Below, piece by piece: positions 6,355 through 11,902 of a stretch of 35,891 nt of DNA. The notes under the pieces were generated by a model. That model was not told the DNA's origin. It made no database searches and saw nothing but the letters and a program-made list of their open reading frames with translations. Origin of the DNA: Verrucomicrobiota bacterium (GTDB lineage: Bacteria; Verrucomicrobiota; Verrucomicrobiia; Verrucomicrobiales; Akkermansiaceae); NCBI GenBank assembly GCA_016871685.1, contig VHCM01000010.1, positions 1 to 35,891 of the forward strand. The letters run 5' to 3'. The first letter of the stretch is position 1; each line of letters opens with the position of its first letter. The position numbers were made by a program, and so were the translations under genes.

Positions 6355-10243
<3,889 letters not shown>

Positions 10244-10296
10244 GGCGTGCTTCAGCGCCGCTGCATTCCGGATTGGCAGTGAACGCCGGGCCGACC

Positions 10297-10500
10297 AGAG
10301 CAGTTTGCGAAAAGGTGTCGCCGGTGGAGCGAGAAGATGTTGGCTAGAGCAAGGCGTTGCGATGGAGTGGATCGACATCCACGACTGAGCAACAACGCAG
10401 CGATGGACAAAAGATTCCGCTTCTTTTACAAATCCGGCGAAGCCGCAACTGTTCCACACCCAACTCCAACCACCGGCGACAAATTTGAGCAAAATGCTCT
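10297..10500. mobile_element. MITE-like element with 31-bp terminal inverted repeats
   Basis: The 31 bases at 10297-10327 (starting AGAGCAGTTTGC, ending TGTCGCCGGTGG) match the reverse complement of 10470-10500 at 26 of 31 positions, giving a 204-bp element with no coding potential. Inside are a perfect hairpin GTGGAT-CGAC-ATCCAC, a second TAGAGCA word at 10345-10351, and two related direct words: GAGCAAGGCGTTGCGATGGA and GAGCAACAACGCAGCGATGG. No clear target-site duplication is visible. It fills most of the recJ-mpl gap and ends 22 bases before the mpl start codon. Confidence 0.7.
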
Positions 10501-10522
10501 AGTTTCGCCCATTCACAACGGC

Positions 10523-11902
10523 ATGAGGAAATTTCATTTTACCGGCATCTGCGGCACGGCGATGGGGGCGGTGGCCGCCGCGATGAAGCGCCGCGGCTTC
10601 GAGGTCAGCGGTTCGGACGCTAACGTGTATCCACCGATGTCCGACTTCCTGCGCTCCCAGGAAATCCCGATCCGCGAAGGGTACCATGAGGAGCACCTTG
10701 CGCCCGACACCGATGTGGTGGTGATCGGCAACGCCGTGTCGCGCGGCAACCCGGAGGCCGAGGCCGCGTTGTCCCGCAAGCTGCTCTACCAGTCGCTGCC
10801 CGAGGTGATGAAAGAGCACTTCCTGCGCGGCAAACGCAATTTCGTGGTCACCGGCACGCACGGCAAGACCACCACCTCGTCGATGTTGGCCTGGCTGATG
10901 CGTCATGCCGGACTCGATCCCGGATTCATGATCGGCGGACTGCCGAAGAACCTCGGCTGCGGCGCGGTGTTCACAGAATCGGAGTTCAACGTCCTCGAAG
11001 GCGACGAATATGACACGGCCTTCTTCGACAAGCGCGCGAAGTTCCTCCACTACCTGCCCGAATGCGTGGTGATCAACAACATCGAGTTCGATCATGCGGA
11101 CATCTACGCGTCGCTCGATGAGATCCAACTGGCGTTCCGTCGCCTGCTCCACATCGTGCCGCTCAACGGGATGGCCTTCATCAATGGCGACGATCCGGCC
11201 TGCCTCGCGATCGCGCGCGACGCGCCGTGTCCGGTGACCACCGTCGGCTTCGGCGAGACGTGCGCGTTGCGGATTCGCGGCGTCGAATGCACGCCGGACC
11301 GCAGCTCGTTCGATCTCGAAGGCCGCCGGTACTCGGTGCGTATGACGGGCGAATTCAACATCCGCAACGCGGCGATGGCCGCAGCGGCCGCGGGCTTCGC
11401 CGGAATCGCAGCGGATGACATCCGCGACGGACTCGAGCGCTTCGACGGCGTCGCCCGGCGCCAGGAAATCCGCGGCGAGGCGCGCGGCGTCACGGTGGTC
11501 GACGACTTCGCGCATCACCCGACGGCGATCCGGCTGGCGGTGGAAAGCCTCAGGCAGCGCCATCCCGGAAGGCGCTTGTGGATCTTGTTCGAGCCGCGCT
11601 CCAACACCACGCGCCGCGCCGTGTTCCAGCAGGAACTCGCCGCGGCACTCGCGTCGGCCGACCTCGCGGTGATCGCCGCGATGCCCGACATGCACAAGAT
11701 CCCGGCCGGCGACCGGCTCGACCCGCAACGGCTCGCGCACGACATTGGTCGACTCGGCGGCAGCGGACGGCACCTCGACAGCACCGAGGCGATCGTCGCC
11801 GCGGTGTGCGACGAAGCCGCGGCGGGCGATGTCGTCGCCGTCCTCTCCAACGGCGGATTCGACGGCATCCACGACAAGCTGCTCGCCGCACTTGCGTTGT
11901 AG
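10523..11902 (+). CDS. mpl: UDP-MurNAc:L-Ala-D-Glu-meso-DAP ligase Mpl (MurC-like)
   Basis: Mpl attaches the recycled tripeptide L-Ala-gamma-D-Glu-meso-DAP to UDP-MurNAc. The 459-residue protein has the N-terminal GICGTAMGAVAAAMKRRG loop, SGSDANVYPPMSDFL (Mpl-typical; MurC differs here), the ATP loop GTHGKTTTSS at 111-120, EGDEYDTAFFDKRAKF, and DDFAHHPTAI in the C-terminal domain. The ATG at 10523 fits the family start; the longer open frame from 10337 runs through the repeat element. MurC is the alternative, but the DANVYPPMS and EYDTAFFDKRAKF blocks favour Mpl. It lies far from the dcw cluster. Confidence 0.88.
   Translation: MRKFHFTGICGTAMGAVAAAMKRRGFEVSGSDANVYPPMSDFLRSQEIPIREGYHEEHLAPDTDVVVIGNAVSRGNPEAEAALSRKLLYQSLPEVMKEHFLRGKRNFVVTGTHGKTTTSSMLAWLMRHAGLDPGFMIGGLPKNLGCGAVFTESEFNVLEGDEYDTAFFDKRAKFLHYLPECVVINNIEFDHADIYASLDEIQLAFRRLLHIVPLNGMAFINGDDPACLAIARDAPCPVTTVGFGETCALRIRGVECTPDRSSFDLEGRRYSVRMTGEFNIRNAAMAAAAAGFAGIAADDIRDGLERFDGVARRQEIRGEARGVTVVDDFAHHPTAIRLAVESLRQRHPGRRLWILFEPRSNTTRRAVFQQELAAALASADLAVIAAMPDMHKIPAGDRLDPQRLAHDIGRLGGSGRHLDSTEAIVAAVCDEAAAGDVVAVLSNGGFDGIHDKLLAALAL

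Follow-up and report, generated by a model that had tools for sequence, protein, structure and literature searches.

A 202-bp MITE in the promoter of mpl carries a hairpin core that is found in at least four bacterial phyla

The interior of a bacterial MITE is usually regarded as arbitrary, and the element itself as the decayed remainder of an IS. RUP, from Streptococcus pneumoniae, is a MITE related to IS630-Spn1, and a review of it reports no functional motif in its interior (PMC2229807). Correia elements (NEMIS) of Neisseria are 105-155 bp long, intergenic and flanked by TA, and contain an internal IHF site that is bound in vitro (PMC2229807, PMC10969869). REP and REPIN sequences, including CGTC-REPs, are 20-40 bp long with a GTAG or CGTC tag, and stems in the CGTC class measure 8-9 bp (PMC3733652).

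The element examined here lies in a 35,891-nucleotide stretch of Verrucomicrobiota DNA, which is called the window. Our main reading is that it is a MITE, that it inserted into the mpl promoter and that it has an affinity to IS630; these three statements are given a joint probability of about 0.85. It is close to certain that window positions 10298-10499 are a 202-bp non-coding MITE (GAGC...GCTC) directly upstream of mpl. Its main parts, and the gene that follows it, are:

10298..10499, plus strand: MITE
10298..10327, plus strand: left terminal inverted repeat, GAGCAGTTTGCGAAAAGGTGTCGCCGGTGG
10470..10499, minus strand: right terminal inverted repeat, which reads GAGCATTTTGCTCAAATTTGTCGCCGGTGG on that strand
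10435..10445, plus strand: CGGC-GAA-GCCG, a small right-arm hairpin recognized by reading the sequence; hairpins like it appear in other Verrucomicrobial families
10523..11902, plus strand: mpl, UDP-N-acetylmuramate:L-alanyl-gamma-D-glutamyl-meso-diaminopimelate ligase (TIGR01081, 414.9 bits, cut-off 388.7)

The terminal repeats were located with inverted-repeat and end-pattern searches. The arms (10294-10327 and 10470-10503) are 34 nt long and 82% complementary, in agreement with the imperfect terminal inverted repeats of the initial annotation. A 204-bp query generated 18 full or partial matches in the 2.27-Mb Verrucomicrobiales genome that contains the window (E <= 1.7e-5). 11/18 matches, the window copy included, run from end to end or fall short by no more than 1-2 terminal bases, and the others have 88-93% identity. 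The terminal repeat pattern gave 27 matches in the same genome vs 0 for the reversed control. When 13 copies were aligned, the pairwise difference was about 0.6 in the flanks vs 0.05-0.15 within the element. Since the flanks are unrelated among copies while the element stays similar, the borders are sharp, with similarity dropping abruptly at both ends. The element was initially placed at 10297-10500; its presence stands and its borders were corrected to 10298-10499, with the mpl ATG at 10523. It had also been suggested that a further copy lies at 196-210. That site has 3 mismatches in 15, 12 such sites occur in the window vs 5.7 expected by chance, and neither whole-genome search returned it, so the suggestion was dropped.

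No gene lies within the element itself, as first annotated, and a single frame (ORF 10337-11902) stays open across the greater part of the element and on through mpl. This ORF has 521 aa vs 459 for mpl, and the MITE could give an N-terminal extension if translation started inside the element. In another locus, L016 (1013-1543), a partial MITE right end encodes the last residues of an ORF resembling a toxin-antitoxin type PIN protein (putative). The internal structure noted initially was also borne out: the element strand folds much more stably than shuffled sequences (z -5.0). In summary, the sequence is multi-copy, lies within 50-500 bp, lacks a transposase gene and has terminal inverted repeats, a target-site duplication and empty sites in relatives. 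The family occurs in congeners with patchy copy number. End matches numbered 31 in the sister species G069 and 8 in G031, with fewer in G015, G007 and other congeners; the full-length query had matches in relatives as well. Family copies are ~10% diverged, which was counted against our reading as regards present activity in the own genome.

The insertion site was defined by comparison with relatives, from which mpl was collected and 32 upstream regions were read, those of G069 and G031 among them. The parts of the site in the window are:

10273..10278, plus strand: TTGGCA, the -35 hexamer of the ancestral mpl promoter, now separated from its -10
10279..10295, plus strand: ancestral promoter spacer of 17 nt, equal in length to the spacer of the relatives
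10296..10297, no strand: left TA target dinucleotide, now CA (TA in most other family copies)
10500..10501, no strand: right TA target dinucleotide, from the sequence and the copy alignment
10500..10505, plus strand: TAGTTT, the retained mpl -10 hexamer, from the sequence and the promoter of the relatives

TTGGCA-N17-TANNNT precedes the mpl ATG in 28/32 orthologues from relatives. The spacer is 17 in all 28, and the -10 box is TAGNNT save for one TATCCT. The window reads, in order, TTGGCA, 17 bases, CA, the MITE, TAGTTT and the ATG. It is therefore close to certain that the MITE splits the mpl promoter within the TA of the -10 box, with the -35 and spacer upstream and TAGTTT downstream. The earlier statement that the element supplies the local 5' region of mpl was correct and understated, as the element parts a -35 from its -10. 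A MITE copy was found at this site in none of the 32 orthologous upstream regions. Since G069 and G031 contain the MITE family elsewhere and have an uninterrupted mpl promoter, these are empty sites. Both outcomes that the initial annotation had named as fatal to its proposal failed to appear: copies with matching ends do occur in the own genome and in relatives, and the orthologous gaps do not share the sequence, as 28/32 show the site without the element. TA is present at both ends of most full copies, and the targets are YTAR. The MITE most likely inserted in the TA of (C/T)TAG, with which the mpl -10 box began, and the TA was duplicated.

Two further observations concern this region. In 28/32 relatives (L336-L366) a mere 10-20 nt or so separate the highly conserved promoter from the likely ATG; with a promoter so near the ATG, the mpl mRNA may be nearly leaderless in the genus. 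The recJ gene is directly upstream of mpl in the window (8372-10522), and in the relatives examined the roughly 1.5 kb preceding mpl showed no recJ.

With the MITE in place, the ancestral -35 is now about 220 bp upstream and the right end of the MITE precedes the old -10. One further feature is relevant here:

10476..10481, plus strand: GCGACA, a weak -35-like hexamer inside the MITE end, 18 nt before the retained -10, read from the sequence as part of a candidate hybrid promoter

The arrangement suggests that the insertion changed mpl expression. The gene may be down-regulated, driven by the weak hybrid promoter, or driven by read-through from recJ. A simple promoter scan upstream of mpl reported nothing. 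It is also conceivable that the insertion silenced mpl, with no hybrid promoter and with expression only via recJ read-through or not at all. The native -35 (5/6 match) is gone and its replacement GCGACA is poorer (4/6, spacer 18), and mpl serves a cell-wall recycling function that is usually dispensable. The mpl reading frame, however, is intact and full length, which argues against a long-lasting silence. We felt that silencing was a serious candidate, if the less probable outcome.

IS630 was considered because the target is TA, and seven genomes were searched for IS630-type DDE domains. In the sister species G069, one IS630-type gene (L368) lies between inverted repeats that start with TAGAGCATTTT. 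This element is about 1,000 bp long, has TA on both flanks and has the terminal repeats GAGCATTTTAAATAAATTTGTAGCC and GAGCATTTTAAAAAATTTTATAGCC. Its transposase is in two overlapping frames, and the second part belongs to IS630 family NF033545 (108 bits). The left end of L368 and the usual right end of the MITE family are identical at 20/25 bases (80%) in a by-eye comparison, which is a partial match only. The hairpin core of the MITE, described below, is absent from L368. In the own genome, an IS630 remnant at the end of contig C106 is 74% identical over 235 bp and has an end of the L368 kind, AAGAGCATTTTAAATAAA; this same remnant carries GAGCATTTTAAATAAA. The end-pattern search of the own genome found no intact IS630 with the exact MITE ends. 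Mobilization by an IS630-family transposase was for this reason graded likely only. Most likely, such a transposase acting in trans recognized the terminal repeats and inserted the element. The MITE resembles RUP in its TA target and in ends partly common with an IS630-family element. The initial annotation had left the family unnamed and had proposed a search for a transposase gene with the same termini. No gene with identical ends came to light, near-matching ends did in L368, and the ends now point to IS630.

The interior of the MITE contains a second structure:

10351..10401, plus strand: conserved hairpin core AAGGCG...AACGCAGC (covariance-model match at 10335-10416, 59 bits, E 1.4e-13)

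These inner 51 bp are common to the window MITE and to a different MITE family in the congener G033, whose ends are CTAGTGTTCTGAAAATC. Among copies of the window family, divergence is lowest in the core (0.046 vs 0.065-0.146 elsewhere). 37 diverse core sequences were aligned (A1), and a covariance model (R1) was built from the alignment. The proposed pairs were formed in 83.0% of the cells of A1 vs 60.2% in shuffles. The covariation score was 0.557 vs 0.183 for shuffled alignments, of which 0/500 reached the observed value, and slid versions gave at most 0.223. At one inner pair (columns 26-62) G-C, C-G, A-T and T-A all occur. RNAalifold, run with no structure supplied, predicted 24 pairs, 19 of them changed on both sides, and its structure largely overlaps the proposed one. 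Conserved G and A residues between the paired positions form G.A-rich internal loops, which could contain tandem sheared G.A pairs. The search pattern fixed some invariant core positions while the covarying stems were free; the invariance of the fixed positions is therefore no evidence.

The structure belongs to one strand and not to its complement. In the stems G.T exceeds A.C, 54 vs 20 in all sequences and 31 vs 14 in the non-redundant set (p 0.016), and among mismatches G.A exceeds C.T by 33 to 1. A variant core, AAGGCGAAGCCGAGGGAG...GACCGAGG.TGAGTCCGC, is present in many copies in genomes of the Verrucomicrobiota family f20 (L251, L254, L258).

A search pattern derived from the cores of both families was found in at least 119 stretches of a species-level genome collection, in which about one or two chance matches of the core pattern are expected by a rough estimate. 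The core was counted in at least four phyla: Verrucomicrobiota, Acidobacteriota, Pseudomonadota and Bacteroidota. The Pseudomonadota are sphingomonads, including Sphingomonas isolates, and gammaproteobacteria. Bacteroidota are represented by one contig (L082), on which one gene ends in an apparent Bacteroidota sorting domain. Model R1 located the core 13 times in the genome of the window and matched 26/288 (9%) Verrucomicrobiota genomes, often in multiple copies and with a patchy distribution. Planctomycetota were left uncounted. The contigs labelled Kuenenia have 60-70% GC, which we take to be far above the GC content of Kuenenia, and were not counted; the contigs L113, L120, L140, L147 and L154 of this MAG, labelled Candidatus Kuenenia stuttgartiensis, are probably misbinned. 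A single 4-kb Eremiobacterota contig was likewise left out of the phylum count.

Rfam gave no match for the window copy at E <= 1 and, for 14 loci with the core, nothing on the element at the gathering threshold. The core pattern had no exact match in viral contigs. Among plasmids neither the core nor the window element was matched, and two sphingomonad elements gave short weak matches only. The core motif strings were not found in the main text of the open papers searched. The core may have been described earlier, for example among the multicopy sequences of Geobacter, for which the main text gives no sequence.

Core-bearing elements are flanked by TA and have 43 different terminal repeats. 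Inverted repeats in the flanks exceeded the 99th percentile of mismatched flanks in 26/48 (54%) non-redundant core loci. The distance from the left end to the core is 55-61 bp in 57/69 (83%) elements at a lower cut, and in these 69 the right-arm lengths cluster near 57, 100-110 and 160-167. Several long right arms hold a second, inverted core, as judged by eye. The long forms L106, L174, L184, L245 and L248 have two inverted cores, which recalls REP doublets; the looser among the second cores were in part seen by eye only. For some MITE families no partner transposase was found. In G053 the ends AGAACCTGTTTGGATAAA occur 68 times, and the unpaired ends that were checked had no apparent transposase next to them. 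Two candidate partners were discarded: the Acidobacterial ends near L299/L300 enclose ordinary genes, and an IS4-type (PF01609) gene in L393 merely adjoins a MITE core.

We propose that the hairpin at 10351-10401 is an old module of many MITEs across phyla, with little variation in its spacing to the left end. It may help transposase-less elements to be mobilized, with the folded DNA (or RNA) being recognized by the transposition machinery or by a widespread host factor. A role of the hairpin in mobility is advanced tentatively, at a little under even odds. The orientation of the core relative to flanking genes has no clear bias (17 vs 12 co-directional; the left gene reads into the core in 33 vs 19), and the local GC skew around the core has none. 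For these reasons selection at the level of the element was favored, with moderate confidence, over a host regulatory RNA.

Alternatively, the hairpin could act as an RNA that is co-transcribed with its neighbors, where it would serve for processing, stability or protein binding and so either render insertions tolerable or regulate the host gene. The presence of one structured strand, recognized by G.T over A.C and G.A over C.T, speaks for such a role, and NEMIS/Correia transcripts have been proposed as RNase III targets (PMC2229807). The lack of a clear orientation bias does not fit this role. The likely mpl start point is downstream of the whole MITE, which places the hairpin outside the mpl transcript. 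An RNA role was considered unlikely.

The hairpin could also be a REP-like unit in its own right, acquired many times over by unrelated MITEs. In the Kuenenia-labelled contigs the core is part of a hairpin of some 105 bp that lacks clear terminal inverted repeats, and some elements have paired inverted cores, arranged like REP doublets. Repeated capture, however, does not predict the near-constant distance between left end and core, and we felt it was quite improbable. The core, the spacing and the unrelated ends are best accounted for if the elements descend from a single MITE type in which the core was constrained while the ends turned over. On this basis the elements may form an ancient IS630-type MITE superfamily in at least four phyla, in which a functional hairpin with G.A-rich loops keeps almost the same spacing to the left end, and with terminal repeats that turned over as they followed different transposases. 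We hold this possibility at slightly less than an even chance. Finally, the idea that the MITE is an immobile regulatory or structural repeat fixed in the genus, which its intergenic position and structure might suggest, was set aside as almost impossible, being refuted by the empty orthologous sites among the 32 mpl upstream regions and opposed by the patchy copy number between species and the unrelated flanks of the copies.

A covarying hairpin that crosses phyla at near-constant spacing, within unrelated ends, suggests that the interior of these MITEs is under selection. The core and its covariance model provide a concrete object for testing what lets transposase-less elements persist. The mpl locus offers a clear example from nature of insertion into the TA of a -10 box, and 28 relatives show what the ancestral promoter looked like.

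Among described elements, the MITEs of Candidatus Thiomargarita nelsonii are similarly abundant and structured, and the paper that describes them draws a comparison between one family, with TATA-type ends, and IS630 and Correia elements; unlike here, no cross-phylum core was described for them (PMC4853749). REP, REPIN and CGTC-REP sequences share with the core short palindromic hairpins that span phyla, singly or as inverted pairs. They have not been described inside elements with terminal inverted repeats and TA (PMC3733652), whereas the core is about 50-85 nt long, has G.A-rich loops and lies inside such an element. Assignment of the core to REP or CGTC-REP was rejected, since it is not a 20-40 bp palindrome with a GTAG or CGTC tag.

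The nearest known kinds are RUP and Correia elements. Like the window MITE, RUP is about 100-200 bp long and intergenic, uses a TA target and has ends resembling an IS630-family element (PMC2229807). The window MITE differs from RUP in its covarying hairpin core, common to several phyla. Correia elements are, like the window MITE, TA-flanked and intergenic, lie next to promoters or supply them, and contain an internal module. The ends of the window MITE, as read, differ from what we take to be the Correia ends. Correia elements were described from one genus and their module is an IHF site, whereas the window MITE has as its module a structured hairpin that recurs across several phyla within unrelated ends.
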